Position numbers and translations under genes: made by a program. Below are positions 23,710 to 35,215 of a stretch of DNA of 35,510 nt, in pieces. The DNA lies in the NCBI GenBank assembly GCA_016178585.1, contig JACOTA010000004.1, positions 1-35,510 on the forward strand, in the 5' to 3' direction. Numbering within the stretch: the first letter of the stretch is position 1; every line of letters starts with the position of its first letter. The notes under the pieces were generated by a model. The model saw only the letters and a program-made list of their open reading frames with translations. It was not told the DNA's origin and made no database searches. The DNA is from Nitrospirota bacterium (GTDB lineage: Bacteria; Nitrospirota; Nitrospiria; JACQBW01).

Positions 23710-25119
23710 TCACTTTTGTACATTTTTTGAATTTGACAGGTTGTCGGCGATTTCATCATTATACTCGGAAGGCGTAATAAAGATGATTAATTCCGTCTCC
23801 TGATTTCCTTTATTTTGCTTTTTAAACAACCATCCCAAAATAGGAATGTCTGATAAAAAGGGAATTCCATTTTCTTTGACAGATTCATTTTTCGTAATAA
23901 TTCCCCCTATGGCGACCGTCGAACCGTTTTTGACAATTAAATCTGTTTCAGCCGTTCGGGTCGTGAGTGGAGGAATATTTTGAACCTGGTGGCTGTAGTC
24001 GGGTTCTTTTTTCTCAGTTCTTATGTGCATCAGGATCTGATGGTCCGGCGTAATATGAGGCGTTACCACTAACTCCAGTTTTGCGTTTATCGTCGTAACC
24101 CCGCTGGTTGCTGAAGAGCCTGTGGGAGTCCCGCCGGAGGTTGCTCCTCCCGAAACAAGGGTTGCGGTTGGAATCAAGATTTCCGTCCCGCTCGAAATTC
24201 TCGCTTCTTTATGATCGAGCGTCAGAATTTTGGGTTTCGACAATATTTTTCCCTTTCCGGTGTCCTGCATGGCGGATAGTTGAACATCTAAAAGCAAATT
24301 GTTGGCAATATTCGCATAAGACAAACCGATTGAGCCTCCCAGGCCGGGTCCAACCGTGGCCGGCAGATTCACGGCATAAGGAGCGCCGCTATATCCTATC
24401 CCGTTGGTCAGTGGATTAAAAAACGTGTCGGTAGATGAGCTTTTGGTCACGCCACCCAGGAGGGAATAATTCCCGTTATTATAAAGACCTCCCCATTGGA
24501 TTCCCAGTTCACGCGTAAAGTTGGTATTTGCTTCAACAATTTTTGCCTCAATCATGACCTGGGGGGTTTTATTATCCAGCGTTTTTACCAGAGTTGATAT
24601 TTTTTCGATATTTTCAGGAATATCTTTAATAATGAGTGAGTTAGAACGGGAATCCACCGCGATATTCCCTTTTTTGCTTAATAGGCCTTTCACGGAGTCC
24701 TGGAGATCTTTTACGGTGGCATAATTTACCGGGATCAGGCGGGTTACCAGATCTTCTTCCCCTTCGGGAGAAGAGGTATGGGCAATCGTCATGATAGACC
24801 CGTTTTTGCTCGCCCAAAGATTTTGGTTTCGTAAGATCGCATCCAGGGCTTCATCCAGCGTGACGTTTTTGAAGCTCAAGGTCACTTTCCCTTTTACATC
24901 CTCCCTGATAATGACATTGATATGATTTTCCTGCCCGATGGCCCGGAGAACATCTTTTACATCGGCCTCCCGAAATTCAAGAGAAAATCTTGATGAATTT
25001 CCGTTATTTTCACCCTCTGGCAGGATTCTCACGATATGATCCTGGCCCAAGGCTTTTTCAATAAATAAAAGAGAGAGGCTAAAGAATAATAAAACCATCC
25101 ACCGATTAGAGTTTCTCAT
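23710..25119 (-). CDS. pilQ: Type IV pilus secretin PilQ (short form)
   Basis: A 469-residue outer-membrane secretin that forms the gate for the pilus. After a signal peptide (about 1-25) come an STN/N0-like domain (FSLEFREADVKDVLRAIGQE), an N1-type domain (RLIPVNYATVKDLQDSVKGL) and the secretin domain (VMIEAKIVEANTNFTRELGI through GGIITKNESVKENGIPFLSD). It ends soon after. Classical PilQ is about 700 residues with N-terminal AMIN domains; none is present here. ATG 25119 has AGGAT 8 nt upstream; ATG 25140, overlapping the pilP stop, is the alternative. It is the last gene of merR-pilMNOPQ. Confidence 0.9.
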   Translation of the reverse strand: MRNSNRWMVLLFFSLSLLFIEKALGQDHIVRILPEGENNGNSSRFSLEFREADVKDVLRAIGQENHINVIIREDVKGKVTLSFKNVTLDEALDAILRNQNLWASKNGSIMTIAHTSSPEGEEDLVTRLIPVNYATVKDLQDSVKGLLSKKGNIAVDSRSNSLIIKDIPENIEKISTLVKTLDNKTPQVMIEAKIVEANTNFTRELGIQWGGLYNNGNYSLLGGVTKSSSTDTFFNPLTNGIGYSGAPYAVNLPATVGPGLGGSIGLSYANIANNLLLDVQLSAMQDTGKGKILSKPKILTLDHKEARISSGTEILIPTATLVSGGATSGGTPTGSSATSGVTTINAKLELVVTPHITPDHQILMHIRTEKKEPDYSHQVQNIPPLTTRTAETDLIVKNGSTVAIGGIITKNESVKENGIPFLSDIPILGWLFKKQNKGNQETELIIFITPSEYNDEIADNLSNSKNVQK

Positions 25120-25136
25120 AATAGATATCCTTTTTT

Positions 25137-25508
25137 TCATTGGCTGTCCGATAAAAATGGGAGAATTCGAATCTCCCTGGACCCAAAAGCCCCCTTTAAA
25201 ATAACCCGGTCGGAATCGATAACGGCAACGGTGCCTCCCATGATCTGATCCCCTTCTGATACGATTCGATTATTGATAATCGCTGATTTACTTCCCGACG
25301 CTCCGACTAAAATGCCGGTCAATCTCCATTGATCAACCTGAACTCCCCCCGGAGCGGGATGGCTTAAGACTTTTTGACGCGGCAGATGAAAAGGGTCCCG
25401 GTTTTCGGGGTTCTGGTCAACCCGAGACTTTAAAGATTGGCCGGGAACGATTTGAGATCCCAACAAGACCAGAAAAAACAGGATTAACGTAAACAGAATG
25501 TTTTTCAT
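25137..25508 (-). CDS. pilP: Type IV pilus assembly protein PilP
   Basis: A 123-residue protein with an N-terminal signal segment (about 1-23). The RDPF motif (NRDPFHLP) typical of PilP precedes a small beta domain (VDQWRLTGILVGASGSKSAI, then INNRIVSEGDQI). PilP links the PilN-PilO inner-membrane pair to the secretin. There is no lipobox cysteine, so it may not be a lipoprotein, unlike classical PilP. ATG 25508 overlaps the pilO stop by four bases. Confidence 0.85.
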   Translation of the reverse strand: MKNILFTLILFFLVLLGSQIVPGQSLKSRVDQNPENRDPFHLPRQKVLSHPAPGGVQVDQWRLTGILVGASGSKSAIINNRIVSEGDQIMGGTVAVIDSDRVILKGAFGSREIRILPFLSDSQ

Positions 25509-26101
25509 CCTTCCTCTTTCTTAAGCCGCGTCGTCACAAGCAGTTCAGCAAAAATCAATGGGGTTTCGTCCTCCAGGGTTTCAATCTTAATCCGATCAAT
25601 TTTAACCGGTTGGGGAAAATGGTCCAGCTTGGATAAATAACGCTCAAGTTCATTAAAACGGGTTTTAACCTTGACCCTTACGGTTAAAAGGACCTCTTTT
25701 TCCTCTTCCTGCCGGGAGTCCGGTCGGAATGAAATCACTTCAACCGAATCTCCGGCGGCCAAAAGAGCCATCTTCTCCAAAACCTGGGACATTTTTCGTT
25801 CATTGGCCGTAAGATGGTCGATGTTCAACGACCTTCGTTGAAGCCTTAAGTTGATTCTATTGACCTGTTCCTTCAAAAGAGAGAGGTTCTTTTCTTTTTG
25901 GACCGTCTGCGACTGCGTTAAATTTCGCTCCTCGTTTAATCGGGTCACCTCGCGTTTTTTAGGGCCATAAAATAAACCGCCGATCAGGGTGATGATCAAG
26001 GTCAACAAGATTCCGGCATAAATGGGATCCTTCAACGTTTGATATAAAACGGGAAATCGTTTTAATCCCAGGAATTGATTGATTTTTTCCAAAAAGGTCA
26101 A
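25505..26101 (-). CDS. pilO: Type IV pilus inner-membrane protein PilO
   Basis: A 198-residue bitopic protein: a short cytoplasmic tail, one membrane helix (about 28-46), a coiled coil (about 52-105) and a ferredoxin-like periplasmic domain (about 118-195, with VEVISFRPDS and FNELERYLSKLDHFPQPVKI). This is the PilO layout; it pairs with PilN. Both ends overlap neighbours by four bases (ATGA). Confidence 0.88.
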   Translation of the reverse strand: MTFLEKINQFLGLKRFPVLYQTLKDPIYAGILLTLIITLIGGLFYGPKKREVTRLNEERNLTQSQTVQKEKNLSLLKEQVNRINLRLQRRSLNIDHLTANERKMSQVLEKMALLAAGDSVEVISFRPDSRQEEEKEVLLTVRVKVKTRFNELERYLSKLDHFPQPVKIDRIKIETLEDETPLIFAELLVTTRLKKEEG

Positions 26102-26661
26102 TTGATCCTTCCTGTTATTTCGAAGTGGATAGCCCGATCTTCATGACTCTCCCCTTTTTGGGTGTAAATCAATCGAATTTGGGAAAAGAGAGGCTGACGT
26201 TCAAGCCTTGAAAGAAGAAGGGTTATCGGCGCGTAAGAATTGGCAAAACCGACGAACTTTATCTCTTTAAAAGCAGATTGCGGATTTCCATCCGATCCCC
26301 CGCCCTGTGTTATTCCTCCCTCAAGGTTTTTAAGCCATGCCCCTTCAGGAACCGTTGAGCTTATTACAGAAAGAATTTCTTTCCATTTAATGACCTCTTT
26401 AAAAAAATTTTCGCTTTCCATCTGGCCGTTTTTCTGAATAAAGAGGGTCAGGTCCTGCTCTTCCTTAGAAATTTGGGCAAGACGGTTTTGAAGTTGAGTC
26501 AGTTCGGCTTTCCTCTCTTTAATCTCCACCATTCGTGAACCGATCTCCCAGGCAAACCCTAAAATCAAAATAACCAGCCAGACCGCCAATAGTTTTGGTT
26601 GAATCCGGCTGAACGGGTCAAAGACGAACTCGTCCGTTATTAAATTTATTTCTCTCTTCAT
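26098..26661 (-). CDS. pilN: Type IV pilus inner-membrane protein PilN
   Basis: A 187-residue bitopic protein. The cytoplasmic N-terminus carries INLI (residues 5-8), matching the INLL motif by which PilN binds PilM. Then come one membrane helix (about 27-45), a coiled coil and a periplasmic ferredoxin-like domain. ATG 26661 gives a standard start but has a weak ribosome binding site. The same frame stays open through repeat copy B back to GTG 26742, directly after the pilM stop, which would add 27 repeat-encoded residues. The short form is preferred because the extension looks like repeat sequence. Confidence 0.87.
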   Translation of the reverse strand: MKREINLITDEFVFDPFSRIQPKLLAVWLVILILGFAWEIGSRMVEIKERKAELTQLQNRLAQISKEEQDLTLFIQKNGQMESENFFKEVIKWKEILSVISSTVPEGAWLKNLEGGITQGGGSDGNPQSAFKEIKFVGFANSYAPITLLLSRLERQPLFSQIRLIYTQKGESHEDRAIHFEITGRIN

Positions 26662-26670
26662 CTTAATACT

Positions 26671-26749
26671 CGGGGACCTTCGCAGACTACGCTCAATGCC
26701 CCCGAACCCCGCGTTTCGCGCTGGCAAAGCCAGGCGCTTCACTTATGCG
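26671..26749. repeat. REP-like dispersed repeat, family 1, copy B
   Basis: Blocks in order: CGGGGACCTTCGCAGA, CGCTCAATGCCCCCGAACCC, a GCG-TTT-CGC hairpin, the core CTGGCAAAGCCAG (26721-26733), and CTTCACTTATGCG. The best-preserved full-length copy, about 79 bp. The pilM stop (26743-26745) lies in its right end, and it forms the pilM-pilN spacer. Confidence 0.72.
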
Positions 26750-27807
26750 TTTCCCGGCAACTTGCCCCTTAAAGCCAGGCCGATGGAACCTGCCCAAAGG
26801 GAACCCATCGGATTTAATTCTTTTAAAAAATCCGAACTGCAGACCATAGAAGAAAAAGGATTTTCAAGAACAACCGGCAGGTCAAAATGGGTTTCAAAGT
26901 AATCCCGAAAACCAGCCATTAAGGGGGTTCCTCCCATTAAAATGATTTTTTGAAACAAAGGGTCCCGAAATTGAGTCCGGTAATAGTCCATCGACCGTTG
27001 AACTTCGAGAACCATCCGGTCCATTTCTTCCTTTATGACGCTTTTAAACTCAGAATGGTTTAACCCATCCTTTTTTTTGATGTTTTCCGCCTCGTCAAAA
27101 GAAATGGTTTCTTTTGCCATCATCGCGCGGGAAATGTCGTTCCCTCCATGCTTGATTTGCCGGGTAAACCGCAAGACTCCTTCGCGGCAAATATTAATCT
27201 CCATTTTGGCGGAACCGATATCCATAAAGATCAGGTCATGATCCTTTTCCGGGGAATGATTGAGTTCAACGACTTTAAGCAAAGCGAGAGGGTTGACATC
27301 CATCAAACGGGGATAAATTCCAGCTCTCCCGATATTGTTCAGTTCCTCCGAAATATCACTTTTATCCACCGCGACAAGAATAAGATGCAATACAACCTTT
27401 CCACTCTCTTCATTTTTCTGAAGGACAGCGTAATCAATCACCTTGGTCTCCAGGGGTTCCGTCATCAGCTTTTGGGCTTCCCATTTTATCGCTTCTTCCA
27501 CCTCGTTTTGGGGCATTTCGGGCAACTTTAAATAACGGATTAAAGGGGTTTTTCCCGTATAATTCACCACCACCGGATTTTTTTTAAACTGAAAATTTTC
27601 AAAAACCCCTTTCAGACTGATTAACATTTCGGGTGTTAACGGGTAATTTTCCCTATTTTCATTATTTCCATCGGAACGCCCGTTCGGCATAAAAGGCAAG
27701 ATGTGGGCGTAGTCCAAAAAAAACTTCTCTTCCTTTTTAGAAATAACCGAAAGTTTGATGCTCGATTCGCCGATATCCATTCCAATTAAAGGACGGTTAA
27801 AATTCAC
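26743..27807 (-). CDS. pilM: Type IV pilus assembly ATPase-like protein PilM
   Basis: A 354-residue actin/FtsA-like cytoplasmic protein. The phosphate-1 loop (LIGMDIGESSIKLSVI), phosphate-2 strand (LIFMDIGSAKMEINI) and adenosine region (KIILMGGTPLMAGFRDYFE) are visible. PilM binds the PilN tail and joins the inner-membrane complex to the cytoplasmic motor. ATG 27807 overlaps the merR-like gene by four bases. The final codons run into repeat copy B. Confidence 0.93.
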   Translation of the reverse strand: MNFNRPLIGMDIGESSIKLSVISKKEEKFFLDYAHILPFMPNGRSDGNNENRENYPLTPEMLISLKGVFENFQFKKNPVVVNYTGKTPLIRYLKLPEMPQNEVEEAIKWEAQKLMTEPLETKVIDYAVLQKNEESGKVVLHLILVAVDKSDISEELNNIGRAGIYPRLMDVNPLALLKVVELNHSPEKDHDLIFMDIGSAKMEINICREGVLRFTRQIKHGGNDISRAMMAKETISFDEAENIKKKDGLNHSEFKSVIKEEMDRMVLEVQRSMDYYRTQFRDPLFQKIILMGGTPLMAGFRDYFETHFDLPVVLENPFSSMVCSSDFLKELNPMGSLWAGSIGLALRGKLPGNA

Positions 27808-28040
27808 CTTTTTTCTCCGCTGATCTCTTTCATCGCCTGTTCAAAAGCGATCCGGTGTTTAAATCCTTTTTTAAGGTATTTCCAGATGGCCTCAATTTTT
27901 AAAAAATCTTCCTTTGAATAATCCCGGGACTCTAAATCCCCCATCGGAATCCGCTTTGGAGAGATATACCCCTTCTGTTCCAGGTAATAGAGTTTGTGCC
28001 GCGGGATTTTCACCTTTTCTAAAATTTCAGATGTTCTCAT
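27804..28040 (-). CDS. Small MerR-type HTH protein
   Basis: A 78-residue protein that is little more than a MerR-like winged helix: RTSEILEKVKIPRHKLYYLE, QKGYISPKRI, then a wing and a last helix (FLKIEAIWKYLKKGFKHRIA). It lacks the long dimerisation helix and effector domain of full MerR regulators. Its stop overlaps the pilM start (ATGA), making it the first gene of the pil operon. It may regulate the operon or serve as a small partner protein; the sequence does not decide. No convincing promoter was found in 28041-28131. Confidence 0.75.
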   Translation of the reverse strand: MRTSEILEKVKIPRHKLYYLEQKGYISPKRIPMGDLESRDYSKEDFLKIEAIWKYLKKGFKHRIAFEQAMKEISGEKR

Positions 28041-28233: not shown

Positions 28234-29979
28234 TCACTGGGGAACTTCCCGCCAGGCGATATTGGGTCGCTTCGGTCCGATAAGATAAACACTATTTAAT
28301 ATCGTATTCTGACTGTTCAGGGTTTCAATGATCCAATCTGTGCCGTTCCAATGAAGGACCAACGGCCGTTGACCCGCGCCTCCCGGACTTCCCACGGCCC
28401 AGCAATCATTGGAGGTCACGCAGGATACCGATCGAAGAGGGAGATTAATCGTAACAGCTGTCCCGGCAAAATTTCTGACTGAGTTTCTAAGGGACCATGT
28501 CGCTCCATTCCAATACAAAATTAAAGGCCGTTGCCCACCTCCTCCCGGATTTCCCACCGCCCAGCAGGTGACAGGAACAAGATTGCTGTTGCAGTAAACA
28601 GAGTTAAGATTACGAGGAATTCCCAGGAGAGAGTTTTGTCGCGCCCACGTTGCCCCGTTCCAATATAAAATGAAGGGACGTTCATTCGCTGGAGCGCCCC
28701 CGGCTGTATTCCCCACCGCCCAGCAGGTGACAGGAACAAGATTGCTGTTGCAGTAAACAGAGTTAAGATTACTGGAAATTCCCAGGAGGGAATTTCTTGG
28801 CCCCCACGATGCCCCATTCCAATAAAGAATTAACGGGCGCTGTGCGGCAACACCTCCCGCATTGCCTACTGCCCAACAATTAACAGGCAAAGAATTGCTG
28901 TTGCAGTAAACAGAGTTAAGGTTCCGGTTAATAGCCGGTAAACCGGTTTTTCTGAGAGACCAGGTCGTCCCGTCCCAATAATAGATAAGTGGCTGTTGGG
29001 CCGCAACCCCTCCCGGGTTTCCCACTGCCCAGCCATCGTTTGAGGCATTCATGTAAATGGAATTGAGTGGACGAGCGGCAGGAAGAGGAAAAGATGACCA
29101 ATTGACACCGTTCCAACGAATAAAACGTCCCGAAGCGGACCCACTTACTGCCCAACCATCTGCAGGAGAAAGCATCGAAACAGAAGTTAAATTACCAATT
29201 CCACCAGGCGCTACAGCAGTCCTATCAGCCCAGGAGCTCCCATCCCAAAGAAACATTCTAGGAGGGGTGATCCCACCAGCTGTGTTTCCCACTGCCCAAC
29301 CGTTCTGAACCACATCCGCCTGACTGACGACCCTCTGGTTTGTTCCTGCGCCAATGGTTGGAACACCCCCGGTAGAGGTTAATAGACATTGTGTTTGAGC
29401 AACGGAAGTGCCAATGACATGCTGTGCGGGAGCTGTTCCATCCGCCCCTCGGACGGCCCCGACAAAACAAGAGGGTGCGCCTCCGCCACACACTCCTGCG
29501 CCTTGCCCCAGAGCGGTATAGTCAATCATTTCCTTATCGATCATGATCCGGCCAAATGAGGCATACCCTGAAACCGAAAGATTTGCCGCTGTCGCAGGAA
29601 TCGTTGTCGTCACATTATCAGTCAAAGCAAACAAAGAAGTCGGCGCCAGGTTATTATTAAAAACAGAGGTTACAGTAAACTGTCCGCTTCCCGACGCTGT
29701 AAAGGCCGGAACAGCTCCGTTAAAAGATGTGCTTGTATTAATAGAAGCACAGGTACAGGTTGTGCAGGGAGGGGATCCTTCTCTCTTTAATAAATACCTT
29801 CCTGCTCTTTCCAATCCGCCTTCGGCAATATACAGGGCTCTGCTGGAATAAACTTCGTTGACAGACTGAGTCATATTATTGGAAGAGAGAGAGATAAAAA
29901 TTACTCCGACAAAAGCCATGACCACGAGGAAAAAGATCACCGCCAATAACGCCACCCCTGTTTGGTTTCTAAAAAACAT
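28234..29979 (-). CDS. PilX-like minor pilin with seven propeller-type repeats
   Basis: A 581-residue protein. Residues 1-65 match the PilX N-terminus: a hydrophobic helix (VALLAVIFFLVVMAFVGVIF) then SSRALYIAEGGLERAGRYLL. Residues 65-220 are Cys-rich (CTTCTC). From 225 to the end come seven units marked by WAVG or WAVS (Trp at 228, 276, 317, 369, 420, 473, 527), each followed by a strand such as LILYWNGATW; spacing is 41-54 residues. Seven such units suggest a seven-bladed beta-propeller. Units 4-6 carry paired cysteines (VYCNSN...CWAVGN). A pilin with a large propeller would sit at or near the pilus tip, as an adhesin or sensor; this is inferred. It follows pilW by 4 nt. Confidence 0.75.
   Translation of the reverse strand: MFFRNQTGVALLAVIFFLVVMAFVGVIFISLSSNNMTQSVNEVYSSRALYIAEGGLERAGRYLLKREGSPPCTTCTCASINTSTSFNGAVPAFTASGSGQFTVTSVFNNNLAPTSLFALTDNVTTTIPATAANLSVSGYASFGRIMIDKEMIDYTALGQGAGVCGGGAPSCFVGAVRGADGTAPAQHVIGTSVAQTQCLLTSTGGVPTIGAGTNQRVVSQADVVQNGWAVGNTAGGITPPRMFLWDGSSWADRTAVAPGGIGNLTSVSMLSPADGWAVSGSASGRFIRWNGVNWSSFPLPAARPLNSIYMNASNDGWAVGNPGGVAAQQPLIYYWDGTTWSLRKTGLPAINRNLNSVYCNSNSLPVNCWAVGNAGGVAAQRPLILYWNGASWGPRNSLLGISSNLNSVYCNSNLVPVTCWAVGNTAGGAPANERPFILYWNGATWARQNSLLGIPRNLNSVYCNSNLVPVTCWAVGNPGGGGQRPLILYWNGATWSLRNSVRNFAGTAVTINLPLRSVSCVTSNDCWAVGSPGGAGQRPLVLHWNGTDWIIETLNSQNTILNSVYLIGPKRPNIAWREVPQ
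28553..28772. repeat. Identical 61-bp direct repeats inside the propeller region
   Basis: 28553-28613 and 28712-28772 are identical over 61 bp and offset by 159 bp, which is 53 codons, so they are in frame. A third, diverged unit lies near 28865-28925. Recombination between the two would add or remove exactly one propeller unit. Confidence 0.85.
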
Positions 29980-29983
29980 CGAT

Positions 29984-30499
29984 CTAAAAATTCCTCGGAT
30001 GAACGGTGATCTGCAGGGGAAGGGTCTCTCCCCCTTGAGCGGGAGTTAAATTTAGAGTAATGTTCCAGATTGAGGAACAGACAGTGGTAGGGTTCCCTGA
30101 AGAATCCCTGTAGGTAAATGTAAAACTGCTCAGGTTATCGGCAAGAGTGTTTCCCCCGTCTGAAAGGATGCCTCCAGCATAACGATACGTAATCGAATTT
30201 CCTTGAACATCGGTAAAAATAAGCCGCTGTGGAGTAGTGGGTGTGGTAGTGCAGGTTGAAATAGCCGCCGGGTTTTTAATCATCCTGATCTCTCTGGCCA
30301 TTTTTTCAAGGGCCAACCTTCCCTGATTTAAAATAGCGGAATAATTGTCTTCCTTTTGATAAGTTTGGGCCGCCTGACCAATCAGAAGACTGGCGGTCAT
30401 CGCGATAATTCCGATTAAAACAATCACAATGGCTAACTCAACCATTGTAAAACCTTTCTGATTGAACAGAATTAACTTCTGTAAAATTCTTTTGAACAT
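29984..30499 (-). CDS. Minor pilin, PilW/PulJ type
   Basis: A 171-residue prepilin. The cleavage site is KG^FTMVELAIVIVLIGIIAM, with the essential Glu at +5. The pilin helix continues through ALEKMAREIRMIK, a stretch typical of PilW/PulJ minor pilins. Cysteines near residues 103 and 141 may pair. It lies between the PilV-like and PilX-like genes, the usual V-W-X order. Confidence 0.82.
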   Translation of the reverse strand: MFKRILQKLILFNQKGFTMVELAIVIVLIGIIAMTASLLIGQAAQTYQKEDNYSAILNQGRLALEKMAREIRMIKNPAAISTCTTTPTTPQRLIFTDVQGNSITYRYAGGILSDGGNTLADNLSSFTFTYRDSSGNPTTVCSSIWNITLNLTPAQGGETLPLQITVHPRNF

Positions 30500-30510
30500 A
30501 AGAATTGCCT

Positions 30511-30921
30511 TTAGTAACTTCCGATGAGGGTGCTGGTTGTCACTGTTCCTGTTTTGGACGTTACCGAAACCATTATATTTTTATAATTGGTTGGACCCGC
30601 AACAGTGGCGTTTAGCGCCCCTGTATTCACAAAAATGACATTGACACTTCGATTGAAACCAGAAAAACCCGGTACAGGATTTTCAGCGGGGTAAATGGCA
30701 CTGGTCACATAATTAAACCCCCTGGCTGAATTTTCTTTGTCGGCAATGATCAGGTCCAGTTTTTCCTGCGCCAGTTCCGTTGCCTGAGTGATCACCGAAG
30801 GGTCGCCATTGCTTTGAGAAAACGTCGTAAACATCGCCATTAATCCAGACGTAATAATGGCCAATAAAACGATCGTTATTAAGATTTCTATGAGGGTAAA
30901 ACCCCGTTGATTTTGGAACAT
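30511..30921 (-). CDS. Minor pilin, PilV/PulI type
   Basis: A 136-residue prepilin with a very short leader (MFQNQRG^FTLIEILITIVLL). The pilin helix continues with ATELAQEKLDLIIAD, characteristic of PilV/PulI. It is the first gene of the minor pilin operon. There is no recognisable ribosome binding site before ATG 30921, and the predicted transcription start falls on the ATG itself, so it may be translated from a leaderless mRNA. Confidence 0.82.
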   Translation of the reverse strand: MFQNQRGFTLIEILITIVLLAIITSGLMAMFTTFSQSNGDPSVITQATELAQEKLDLIIADKENSARGFNYVTSAIYPAENPVPGFSGFNRSVNVIFVNTGALNATVAGPTNYKNIMVSVTSKTGTVTTSTLIGSY

Positions 30922-31067: not shown

Positions 31068-31283
31068 TTACGCCGCCCATTCAAACTTCGGTTTCTTCTT
31101 ACTCTTCACACAATCACGCAGGTAAAGATCAATCAAGGTTTGATAAGGAATCCCCGATTCTTTAGAAAGACCTTTGAAATAATCAATAACCTCCGTGCTT
31201 AGATTAATTCCAACGGCTTTCTTTCTTGAGGCATAGGGATTTTTTTTAGCTTTCATTTTTGAAAAATCATATTCCTTCTTCAT
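31068..31283 (-). CDS. brnA: BrnA-type antitoxin
   Basis: A 71-residue ribbon-helix-helix protein. A short basic lead (KNPYASRKKAVGINLSTEVI) is followed by the helices DYFKGLSKESGIPYQTLIDL and YLRDCVKS, the BrnA/CopG-type DNA-binding fold. ATG 31283 has AAAGGAG upstream; the open frame extends further but overlaps brnT. It follows the toxin gene, the usual BrnT-BrnA order, overlapping it by 17 nt. It should neutralise BrnT and repress the operon. Confidence 0.85.
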   Translation of the reverse strand: MKKEYDFSKMKAKKNPYASRKKAVGINLSTEVIDYFKGLSKESGIPYQTLIDLYLRDCVKSKKKPKFEWAA

Positions 31284-31551
31284 AACTTTTAATCTCCTTT
31301 TTAGTCGCTTTTCTGGCTGAAATGATACGAACAATTTCGCGTTTATTTCTTTCGCAAAAGACAATGACCAAAACTCTAGCAGAACCACTTAACCCCAATA
31401 AAAGAAACCGATCCTCGTGATTTGAGTGGTCTTCATCGTAAAACACCAGGCCATTTGGATCATCAAATACCTGTTGGGCTTCTTCAAACCAAATTCTGTG
31501 TTTTTTACGGTTAGATTCATTTTTTCGCTCATCCCACTCAAATTCAATCAC
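31267..31551 (-). CDS. brnT: BrnT-type ribonuclease toxin
   Basis: A 94-residue protein with the BrnT signature: FEWDERKNESNRKKHRIWFE, EEAQQVFDDP, then strands ending with RIISARKATKKE. BrnT is a RelE-fold RNase that blocks translation until bound by BrnA. The start is GTG 31551, which fits the conserved N-terminus. No ribosome binding site precedes it, and the predicted transcription start is the G of this GTG. Confidence 0.88.
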   Translation of the reverse strand: MIEFEWDERKNESNRKKHRIWFEEAQQVFDDPNGLVFYDEDHSNHEDRFLLLGLSGSARVLVIVFCERNKREIVRIISARKATKKEIKSYEEGI

Positions 31552-31557
31552 GTCTAT

Positions 31558-31586
31558 AATATAACTATATGTTATATAGATATCAA
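31558..31586 (-). promoter_or_regulatory. Promoter and palindromic operator of brnT-brnA
   Basis: On the minus strand TTGATA (31586-31581), 17 nt, TATATT (31563-31558). The inverted repeat ATATAAC-TATAT-GTTATAT (31559-31577) covers the -10 and part of the spacer, a fitting site for BrnA repression. The predicted start falls at about 31551, the first base of brnT. Confidence 0.55.
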
Positions 31587-31723
31587 ATCTAATCTGCTAA
31601 ATTATTCAGGCCGATTCGGCTTGGACTTTCTGATGATACCACTTTGGTAAGGTTGTATGTGGAATGGAGAGCGGTAAACCTGTTGACTCCAGGAAGCACT
31701 GATGCGATCTACGAGTATTTAAT

Positions 31724-31924
31724 GTGCGTATCGGGCTGGATTTACACAGGCGCATTGTGCTTACTGCATCGGGAAAAGGGTTAAGTTTAAATCGTTTCAT
31801 TGCCGAATTACTGGAAAAAGAAACAAATAAAAACGAAATTTCCTTCTCCCCCCTCACCCAGACTCTCCCACGGGGAGAGGAGTCATTTTGTATGCACGAA
31901 TCCACTGATGTTTTTTGCGCTTGA
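31724..31924 (+). pseudogene. Remnant of a HicB-family antitoxin, C-terminal DNA-binding part
   Basis: The frame encodes RIGLDLHRRIVLTASGKGL then SLNRFIAELLEKE (about 31727-31820). This is the ribbon-helix-helix end of HicB antitoxins, where 'R...LHR.....A...G.SLN.WI...L' is typical. The RNase-H-like N-terminal domain is missing and the upstream frame is closed. After about 31830 the frame reads through an unrelated hairpin repeat. 31587-31723 shows nothing recognisable. Confidence 0.6.
31863..31879. repeat. Hairpin repeat CTCTCCC-ACG-GGGAGAG
   Basis: A 7-bp stem with a 3-nt loop, preceded by CCCCCCTCACCCAGA. It is similar to the 'cctcaccctgaccctctccc' intergenic repeats of many proteobacterial and related genomes. 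It lies between the hicB remnant and the phd promoter. Single copy here. Confidence 0.5.
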
Positions 31925-31958
31925 CTTTCAATAGACTGGTCTATATACTGGTCTATAT
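31921..31958 (+). promoter_or_regulatory. Promoter and tandem operator of phd-vapC
   Basis: TTGACT (31921-31926), 17 nt, TATACT (31944-31949). Two adjacent copies of ACTGGTCTATAT (31935-31946 and 31947-31958) overlap the -10. A 12-bp period puts both copies on nearly one face of the helix, as expected for cooperative antitoxin-toxin binding. Confidence 0.65.
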
Positions 31959-31986
31959 GATACTGTTCGCCGTAACGGAGGAAATG

Positions 31987-32229
31987 ATGAAAATCGAAAT
32001 TGGTTCGTACAAAGCAAAGACTAACCTGTCCATGTTGCTGCGGCAGGTGAAGGAGGGTAAGAGCTTCACAATTACCAATCGCGGCGAAGCCATCGCAGAC
32101 CTTGTGCCGAGCGCCAGCGTGAAGACGAAAGACAAGGTTGCGGCGGTGAAAAAGATTAAGGCTTTCATGCTGGAGAATCCGGTGCACGGGGTGAATATCA
32201 AGGAACTCATTGAAGAGGGGCGCGCGTGA
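31987..32229 (+). CDS. Phd/YefM-family antitoxin
   Basis: An 80-residue protein. The N-terminus MKIEIGSYKAKTNLSMLLRQ and the following SFTITNRGEAIADLVPS are the Phd DNA-binding fold. The C-terminal tail (AAVKKIKAFMLENPVHGV) would bind the toxin. ATG 31987 is chosen over the adjacent ATG 31984 because GGAGG then sits 5 nt upstream. The stop overlaps the toxin start (GTGA). Base composition is visibly richer in G and C than the surrounding pil genes, suggesting recent transfer. Confidence 0.87.
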   Translation: MKIEIGSYKAKTNLSMLLRQVKEGKSFTITNRGEAIADLVPSASVKTKDKVAAVKKIKAFMLENPVHGVNIKELIEEGRA

Positions 32230-32642
32230 ACTTTGTTCTCGACAACTCCGTGGCTATGCGCTGGTTCTTCGGGGACGGCAAGCCGCTGGAACTTGCCTAC
32301 GCCGGGAAAGTGCTTGACGTAATGAAGAACGCGAGTGCTCTCGTTCCGGTGACATGGGGACTCGAAGTGGCCAACGTCATTTCCAGGGCGGAAGCGAAGG
32401 GGCTCGTCACAGAGGCTCGCAGCGGTGTATTCCTTGAGATGCTTGAAGGGGTGGATATCGAAGTGGATGAGGCTACTTTCTCTCATGCGCTGTCAGACAC
32501 CCTTCAGTTGGCGCGGCGCTACCGGCTATCCGCTTATGACGCCTCTTATCTTGAACTGGCTCTGCGTGAGGGGATACCGCTGGCAACGCTGGATGAAGAG
32601 TTGCAGAAGGCCGCCAGGAAAGCGGGTGTAAAACGATTTTGA
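32226..32642 (+). CDS. VapC-type PIN-domain ribonuclease toxin
   Basis: A 138-residue PIN protein with all four acidic residues: D6 (FVLDNSV), E48 (GLEVANV), D105 (YDASYLELA) and D123 (TLDEEL). VapC toxins cut tRNA or rRNA using Mg2+. It starts at GTG 32226, overlapping the phd stop. This Phd-with-PIN pairing is common in the family. GC-rich like its antitoxin. A diverged copy of its 3' end lies at 33436. Confidence 0.88.
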   Translation: MNFVLDNSVAMRWFFGDGKPLELAYAGKVLDVMKNASALVPVTWGLEVANVISRAEAKGLVTEARSGVFLEMLEGVDIEVDEATFSHALSDTLQLARRYRLSAYDASYLELALREGIPLATLDEELQKAARKAGVKRF

Positions 32643-32746
32643 ATTTGAAATATTTCTGATCGCCTTTTCTATAATTATAGAATATAGAAATCTCTTTGGG
32701 GAGTCCGAAGAAGAGAAAGAAAACCCTGAAAATGATTTTGTTTTTT

Positions 32747-33148
32747 TTATTTTAAAAGCTTGAGGGTGGAGCACCCCGCAATCGAATTGAAATCGTGATC
32801 TGTCGTCAAAAGGTAACAGTCATACCTGATACAAATAGAGGCAATTAAAAAATCGATCGTACCCGCCTGAACTCCTTTCGAAGAACAATGGTTTCTAAGA
32901 CGTGCGGCTTCAATATAATCTTTACGATGAGGCTCAATAAGTGGAAAGGGGAAAAGCTGTTCTAATAAACGGGCAAAATCTTTTGAAAATTTAATCCCCT
33001 GTAAAAGCTCCTGTAAAACAACTCCTAACAGAAAAATATTTTCCTCATTTTGAATCAAGTCGGTCAGTTTTTCAACGGGAGGAGTGGTCTGGCTTGATTT
33101 TCTGCGAAGCGCCAATGACCAGACAGAGGTATCGACAATAACATTCAT
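32747..33148 (-). CDS. vapC: VapC-type PIN-domain ribonuclease toxin
   Basis: A 133-residue PIN protein unrelated in detail to the one at 32226. Acidic residues are D6 (IVDTSVW), E47 (LQELLQG), D99 (GTIDFLIA) and D117/D119 (TTDHDF). It converges on the phd-vapC pair across a 104-nt gap that holds a 14-bp palindrome, TCTATAATTATAGA (32668-32681), but no clear terminator. It overlaps its antitoxin by 4 nt. Confidence 0.9.
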   Translation of the reverse strand: MNVIVDTSVWSLALRRKSSQTTPPVEKLTDLIQNEENIFLLGVVLQELLQGIKFSKDFARLLEQLFPFPLIEPHRKDYIEAARLRNHCSSKGVQAGTIDFLIASICIRYDCYLLTTDHDFNSIAGCSTLKLLK

Positions 33149-34147: not shown

Positions 34148-34696
34148 TTAAGGAACAGAGGTTTTGCCGGTACCGGCGACAACGGTTACGGTTCGGCCGC
34201 CTGGATTTAGGGTAACCGTTTTAAATCCTGTAATTGAAACAGGGGGTGTCGGGCAAACCCCTGCACTTCCCTCCATTGGAACACCTGCTGAATTAAATTC
34301 TAAATAGTCGCACCCAAAGGTCGTCGAAAAGAGCAAAACACTGGTGTAACTTCCTGTGTTCAGTGCAATCGCAAAAGGCGACGCGTTCGTTGAAGGATCA
34401 AGAATAGAACTCCACCCCGGGCAGGGAGTGTTTTGGTTGGAACAGGCTTGCACTGTGTAACTGTTTGTCGCCGTGGTAAACTGTACACGGTAATGAACCC
34501 TATGGGTCATCGCTTGTTCTTGGGCGTAGGTAATATCCGACTGAATTTTCCGCGCCGTGCCATAAACTTTGGTCGTTGTCGAATCTCCTAAAAGCTCATA
34601 CGCAGCCGCCGACAAAATTGCGACGATTAATATAACAATTACAAATTCAATTAGGGTAAACCCTTTTTGCCTTGCAATATGATTCACAAGCCACAT
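34148..34696 (-). CDS. Minor pilin, FimT/GspH type
   Basis: A 182-residue prepilin with cleavage site QKG^FTLIEFVIVILIVAILS. KIQSDITYAQEQAMTHRVHY, which follows the pilin helix, is typical of FimT/GspH. A Cys-containing beta domain follows (CSNQNTPC; GCDYLEF). GspH-like pilins prime the pseudopilus or pilus. It lies downstream of pilA beyond a hairpin terminator. A decayed copy is at 35230. Confidence 0.85.
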   Translation of the reverse strand: MWLVNHIARQKGFTLIEFVIVILIVAILSAAAYELLGDSTTTKVYGTARKIQSDITYAQEQAMTHRVHYRVQFTTATNSYTVQACSNQNTPCPGWSSILDPSTNASPFAIALNTGSYTSVLLFSTTFGCDYLEFNSAGVPMEGSAGVCPTPPVSITGFKTVTLNPGGRTVTVVAGTGKTSVP

Positions 34697-34713: not shown

Positions 34714-34865
34714 AAAGAAAGACTCGCAGATTTACTTCTGCGTGTCTTTAAACCATTTTATTTAAACTAGCATTGATGTACTGTAGGATCTGCGCAAACA
34801 ATGGTAATAGGATCATTTGCAGTAGCACCCGCAGTGAGGGTCCAACTGGTCGATGTCGGAGTTGC
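34714..34865. repeat. 152-bp direct repeat, copy 1 (pilA 3' region)
   Basis: It matches 35359-35510 at 151 of 152 positions (T at 34724 against A at 35369), offset 645 bp. It covers the pilA C-terminal codons, stop and terminator. The window ends inside copy 2, so the true repeat may be longer. Confidence 0.95.
34718..34749 (-). terminator. Terminator or attenuator between pilA and fimT
   Basis: AAAGACTCGCAGA (34718-34730) and TCTGCGTGTCTTT (34737-34749) pair over 12 of 13 bp with a 6-nt loop, followed on the minus strand by CTTTAATAAATA. It could let pilA be made in excess over fimT. Confidence 0.65.
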
Positions 34866-35215
34866 GCTAAGCCTGTCAATGTAACTGTAGCTGCAACCAC
34901 GGGATTAGGAGTTAACGTTGACGGTTGTGACCCCGTAAGACAGCCTTCTACCGCCGAAAATAATGGTAAAACGGTTCCTGTAGCATTGACACAAACGGTT
35001 CCTGCGGCAACGGTCTTACCTAACCTTTGTCCAGCAAAGTTAACCGCTAGCACACTTCTTAAGCCTGCGATATAGCCTACGTCCGCGGCAGCCTGGGCAT
35101 TCGTCTGCATATCCACATATTTAGGAATTGCAACCGCAGCAAGAATTCCTAATACCACGATCACGATAATTAATTCAATTAACGTAAAACCTTTTTGATT
35201 TCGTAATACCTTCAT
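34748..35215 (-). CDS. pilA: Type IV major pilin PilA, copy 1, frameshifted near the C-terminus
   Basis: A 155-residue frame starting at ATG 35215 behind AAAGGAG. The prepilin site is NQKG^FTLIELIIVIVVLGIL. The frame is normal through VVAATVTLTGL; then a missing base between 34860 and 34873 moves it into a basic, non-pilin tail ending at 34748. In the neighbouring frame the sequence continues as ATPTSTSWTLTAGATANDP, then ITIVCADPTVHQC, and TAG at 34767, the expected pilin end with its disulfide loop. The shift may be real, recoded, or an assembly error at the repeat edge. Confidence 0.85.
   Translation of the reverse strand: MKVLRNQKGFTLIELIIVIVVLGILAAVAIPKYVDMQTNAQAAADVGYIAGLRSVLAVNFAGQRLGKTVAAGTVCVNATGTVLPLFSAVEGCLTGSQPSTLTPNPVVAATVTLTGLAQLRHRPVGPSLRVLLQMILLPLFAQILQYINASLNKMV

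Follow-up and report, generated by a model that had tools for sequence, protein, structure and literature searches.

The PilX-PilY1 tip complex of type IVa pili, described for M. xanthus and P. aeruginosa, combines a Glu5-less PilX located atop the minor pilins with a seven-bladed propeller, and counterparts of both features are predicted for the protein analyzed here. PilX and the type II secretion tip pseudopilin GspK both lack Glu5 and have been placed at the tip (PMC7541494). In models of the PilX-PilY1 complex, the C-terminal strand of the tip protein adjoins PilX (PMC11046646, PMC7541494, PMC13190605). Specifically, in the M. xanthus models the last eight residues of PilY1.3, like those of PilY1.1, are arranged as a strand on PilX (PMC11046646), and a PilY1 C-terminal strand on PilX has been modelled in further systems (PMC13190605). 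GspK additionally carries an extra domain inside its pilin sheet (PMC8179133). Modular pilins are likewise known, including S. sanguinis PilB with a vWA module and PilC with a lectin module, while YCF48/PSII_BNR propellers are characterized by seven blades and a GWAVG motif. Most of what is known about how tip adhesins of type IV pili are anchored and resist pulling forces comes from models. A 2026 preprint by Ellison reportedly deals with strand complementation in tip initiation complexes.

The window analyzed here comprises 35,510 nucleotides from a Nitrospirota bacterium (contig JACOTA010000004.1) and contains a pilus operon in which the gene at the PilX position is fused to a repeat region. 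We propose, with a probability of roughly 0.6, that this gene encodes a PilX-class minor pilin together with its own tip adhesin in a single chain, with the docking strand acting in cis. The components of the operon are:

34748..35215, minus strand: PilA/GspG-like pilin, Glu5 present
34148..34696, minus strand: FimT/GspH-type minor pilin, Glu5 present
30511..30921, minus strand: PilV-type minor pilin, Glu5 present
29984..30499, minus strand: PilW-type minor pilin, Glu5 present
28234..29979, minus strand: fused PilX-slot minor pilin with predicted seven-bladed WAVG propeller, 581 amino acids, coordinates including the stop
26743..27807, minus strand: PilM
26098..26742, minus strand: PilN
25505..26101, minus strand: PilO
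25137..25508, minus strand: PilP-like protein, assigned by its position between PilO and PilQ and kept in relatives
23710..25140, minus strand: PilQ secretin

The fused gene directly follows PilW and precedes PilM, with gaps of only a few bases on the side of PilV and PilW, and thus lies within a fimU/T-pilV-pilW-pilX cluster. The order FimT-PilV-PilW-PilX-PilMNOPQ is conserved in relatives, and the genome also encodes one prepilin peptidase match and several PilB/PilT-type ATPases. The pilin cluster is split between FimT and PilV by toxin-antitoxin genes (31068-33148; BrnA-like, Phd-like and two PIN proteins). A regulator-like ORF of 78 amino acids is located between the fused pilin and PilM (27804-28040, minus strand), and G004 and G035, two of the relatives surveyed, carry a MerR-type ORF at the equivalent place.

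The open reading frame starts with ATG and can be divided into the following parts:

29956..29979, minus strand: class III (prepilin) leader MFFRNQTG, with the prepilin peptidase predicted to cut after Gly8
29872..29955, minus strand: residues 9-36, the hydrophobic helix at the N-terminus of the mature pilin, with Ala and not Glu at position 5
29305..29871, minus strand: residues 37-225, the pilin region, comprising the end of the helix and the beta part; homologous in relatives with every type of module
28279..29304, minus strand: predicted seven-bladed propeller, residues 226-567, strand 559-567 completing blade 1
28538..28839, minus strand: two adjacent blade units with 85% identical DNA over 143 nt, found by a gapless repeat finder
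28237..28278, minus strand: C-terminal tail GPKRPNIAWREVPQ, in which W-x-E is kept irrespective of module type; a candidate strand for docking on the pilin sheet

An ORF artefact was considered and rejected, as full-length counterparts with the same gene order are found in G029 and G002. The N-terminus is that of a type IV prepilin: an eight-residue class III leader ending in Gly (..NQTG) is followed by a mature sequence beginning VALLAV, whose first 20 residues have a mean hydropathy of 3.19. AlphaFold2 predicts a helix at residues 6-32, with a pLDDT of about 30 over most of the pilin part. Glu5 is absent from all 14 related proteins read, as it is from the fused pilin, but present in each of the window's four other pilins. 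The preliminary description of this DNA had called the N-terminus PilX-like. Leader, hydrophobic stretch and missing Glu5 agree with this, whereas the match to Pfam PilX_N (PF14341) reaches only 13 bits, under the cut-off of 25.5; the G029 relative scores 21 bits. The PilX assignment is therefore based on gene order, the missing Glu5 and the relatives and not on the Pfam model, and the protein appears, from these sequence characters, to work like a PilX, with no claim to formal Pfam membership. A sub-domain of the pattern GRIMID.E.ID..F.GA.RG.DGT...H occupies residues 135-197 of the window pilin; it is absent from the G002 pilin and doubled in the short pilins discussed below (loci compared: L041:9189-10544 and L050:6763-7686). 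The genome encodes a second modular prepilin, with PilX_N and DUF7305 (L038:8301-9716, contig C32), which is its only PilX_N match over the cut-off.

The repeat region contains seven WAV[GS] motifs (residues 228, 276, 317, 369, 420, 473 and 527) spaced 41-54 amino acids apart, while 20,000 shufflings of this region yielded at most three. A hidden Markov model of the unit likewise finds exactly seven units. The description of a pilin fused to seven WAVG repeats holds. W-N-G strands are present, and four units, not three as first described, contain a cysteine pair (359/368, 410/419, 463/472 and 520/526). The 85% DNA identity between neighbouring units is a sign of recent internal blade duplication; Tandem Repeats Finder detected no array in the region where the gapless repeat finder found one.

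AlphaFold2 predicts a closed ring at residues 226-567 made of 28 strands, corresponding to seven blades of four, with pLDDT mostly 60-90, from a shallow input alignment of three rows of which the other two span the propeller only; closure of this predicted ring was judged from strand order and fold matches. Since strand 559-567 completes blade 1, chain entry and exit share one blade. Residues 225-581 had initially been proposed for structure prediction; the predicted propeller takes up 226-567 of this span, and the last 14 residues form a separate low-confidence tail. Neither outcome named beforehand as speaking against a pilin-propeller fusion, a prediction without a closed ring or the lack of a functional-type prepilin N-terminus, occurred. 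The best solved Foldseek match of the propeller is YCF48 (E 3e-8), a designed seven-bladed protein is matched with a TMt of 0.79, and PilY1 (3HX6) is not among the 50 matches listed. Pfam names no propeller family in the window protein, with no match to either PSII_BNR (PF14870) or the PilY1 domain (PF05567), and a sequence search of the PDB returned nothing meaningful. A PilY1 domain fused to PilX was rejected for want of a PF05567 match, and the predicted fold points to a YCF48/WAVG-type propeller rather than one of PilY1 type.

The protein can thus be set apart from each described system. Compared with the PilX-PilY1 complex, there is one chain instead of two and a WAVG/YCF48-sort propeller; unlike PilY1, the window protein has no Sec signal but a pilin leader in its place. 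A pilin module joined to a separate domain makes it a modular pilin, but in contrast to known modular pilins the module is flanked by the pilin region on one side and a conserved C-terminal tail on the other, the pilin is PilX-class and modules exchange at one locus. The insert of GspK is an alpha-domain, and the window protein scores 16 against the NCBIfam GspK model (cut-off 130). Although its propeller has the blade number and GWAVG motif of YCF48/PSII_BNR proteins and finds its best fold match there, it differs from them in lacking a Pfam PSII_BNR match, in its W-N-G strands and in being carried on a pilin. Modular pilins as such are already known; new are a propeller on a PilX-class pilin, heads exchanged at a fixed locus and a tail linking fused, split and PilY1 systems. 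The text of the modular-pilin paper names no propeller module (PMC8179133). No paper on a PilX-propeller fusion was found in a literature search whose scope excluded most subscription journals and all preprints.

Relatives were sought first in 58 related genomes and then in wider sets, 270 from the class and 396 from the phylum, and the pilin part was found well outside its own family. At the PilW-PilM locus the same pilin carries a WAVG propeller, one of two other repeat modules or none. The proposed search for other prepilin-propeller fusions succeeded: propeller heads occur at the PilX slot in the genome of the window and in G001, G002, G029, G004 and G016, as well as in G008 as part of a mosaic with a broken frame. 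A beta-rich repeat head that looks Ig-like by sequence is found in G035, G013, G036, G042 and G050, and another repeat serves as the head in G012 and G031; Pfam names none of the three head types. G273, from another class of the phylum, has yet another repeat head and the C-terminus IKWKENY. G012 and G016 belong to one genus and differ in head. Mapping head type onto the PilQ tree gives at least six changes, and even if only its well-supported branches are considered, the propeller requires three. Such repeated head swaps at one locus suggest that pilus surface specificity changes by module exchange.

The number of WAVG units varies among the fusions. Seven units are present in the window protein, G002 and G029, and also in G016 once a duplicated edge at the sequencing gap that interrupts this fusion is allowed for. 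The G004 fusion (L042:9926-12412) contains about fourteen units, apparently one seven-bladed propeller inserted inside the first blade of another. The G001 fusion (L039:7961-9274) has four units and a closing strand, two units sharing 59 identical bases, and may be a real small ring or an assembly collapse. Scans of viral contigs for relatives gave only one remote propeller, and a scan of the genome collection turned up a single lipoprotein-like propeller, from Myxococcales.

The C-terminus of the window protein, IAWREVPQ, belongs to the 14-residue tail outside the predicted propeller, and the last 13 residues have a pLDDT under 50. A W-x-E C-terminus is found in 14 of 15 fused proteins, across all head types, compared with 4 of 515 background sequences, namely the C-termini of other ORFs at the same loci. 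A looser pattern, [WFYL][RKQ][ED], occurs in 12 of 21 PilY1 proteins of the class and in three of five split partners, compared with 14/515 in the background; because both counts are uncorrected for relatedness, with related sequences non-independent, and the patterns were written after viewing the sequences, p-values are too strong and the counts support but do not prove a common tail. The PilY1 C-termini vary (GWRDF, TWQEKQM, FWRELFQ, VFQEKPE, SWINQRD and similar).

The split partners belong to loci with a short PilX that lacks the tail (G007, G011 and G022; G036 and G042 have it as a second copy). These short proteins end about nine residues from the start of the last conserved pilin block (RVV/RVI), the point at which fused proteins continue into the head; the junction was read by eye, since the short pilins, having a second copy of the sub-domain, are mis-registered in the alignment. 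The gene that follows encodes a separate secreted protein, which combines a Sec-type signal with beta-rich repeats. The partners end in IWQEQFR, ESYREEFR (two) and ATREDFP (two), the last of which, from G011 and G022, fits the tail motif poorly. The likeness of the W-x-E tail to the ends of PilY1 and split adhesins suggests that the propeller is held between two pilin-fold parts and not hung on an end.

The tail could instead be the last beta-strand of the pilin itself in an ordinary modular minor pilin, its likeness to PilY1 tails being convergence or chance. Such pilins are common, with 264 architectures counted (PMC8179133), fused proteins of every module type conserve the tail well, and the more distant PilX-like protein of G005 likewise ends in WREVAPQ. 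However, all five short PilX proteins lack the tail while the next gene carries a similar one in three of the five cases, and PilY1 C-termini are enriched for a similar, looser pattern; we consider this explanation unlikely. Even less probable is a propeller acting as a spacer, a cap or a binding module elsewhere in the pilus, or a protein with a GspK-like secretion role: YCF48, whose fold is nearest, functions as an assembly factor and its structure contains a bound peptide, and there is a weak N-terminal GspK match, but the operon, with its PilQ secretin, belongs to the PilMNOPQ pilus type and not to a GspD system, and published models put PilX-slot proteins at the tip (PMC7541494, PMC11046646).

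According to the preferred reading, a PilX-class pilin with its adhesin in one chain, the N-terminal helix would place the Glu5-less subunit atop the pilus-initiating complex of PilV, PilW and FimT, so that the globular part would be located at the tip, as in PilX-PilY1 systems. The seven-bladed WAVG propeller would be a display head, presumably adhesive, flanked by the pilin region and by a short C-terminal strand ('WREV'), and this head would be exchangeable at a fixed locus. By analogy with the PilX-PilY1 strand, the tail would dock on the pilin sheet and close it in cis; in published models the C-terminus of PilY1 adds a strand to PilX, and in related organisms separate secreted tip proteins (beta-repeat proteins or PilY1) end in a similar tail. 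With the sheet closed in this way, the propeller would be held at both ends and pulling force passed into the pilin. A broader idea, which we put forward tentatively and at somewhat less than even odds, is that in this lineage the PilX-adhesin joint has become a cassette, in which unrelated heads are swapped into a split pilin fold. Its common C-terminal docking strand would then also be used by separate tip proteins, PilY1 among them, and the fused and split forms would be two states of one design. A natural PilX-head fusion beside split-gene relatives, several of which have a similar tail with the head, offers a direct, testable case of strand docking, and the fused protein is a single-chain construct for structural work.

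Following the suggestion to check for a pilY1 gene elsewhere in the genome, PF05567 was searched for and not found in the genome of the window or in its two family members; as these three genomes are 82-96% complete, absence of PilY1 is likely, not proven. PilY1 is present in 33 of the 58 relatives and occurs together with a propeller fusion in G004, G016 and G029, so the fusion is not always a stand-in for PilY1. The candidate explanation that the fusion replaces PilY1 was consequently kept only in part.

PilY1 genes of the class are mostly found in a second minor pilin cluster. In most cases the next gene is a conserved one of about 310 amino acids, lipoprotein-like in several instances (L077-L096). 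WAVG propellers are also found in lipoprotein-like proteins away from pili (L007; contig C18). The protein on contig C18 of the genome of the window (L037:12996-16103) is about 1030 amino acids long, has a strong PSII_BNR match and contains roughly 21 YCF48-type units by eye and 16 by hidden Markov model, perhaps three seven-bladed propellers in a row.
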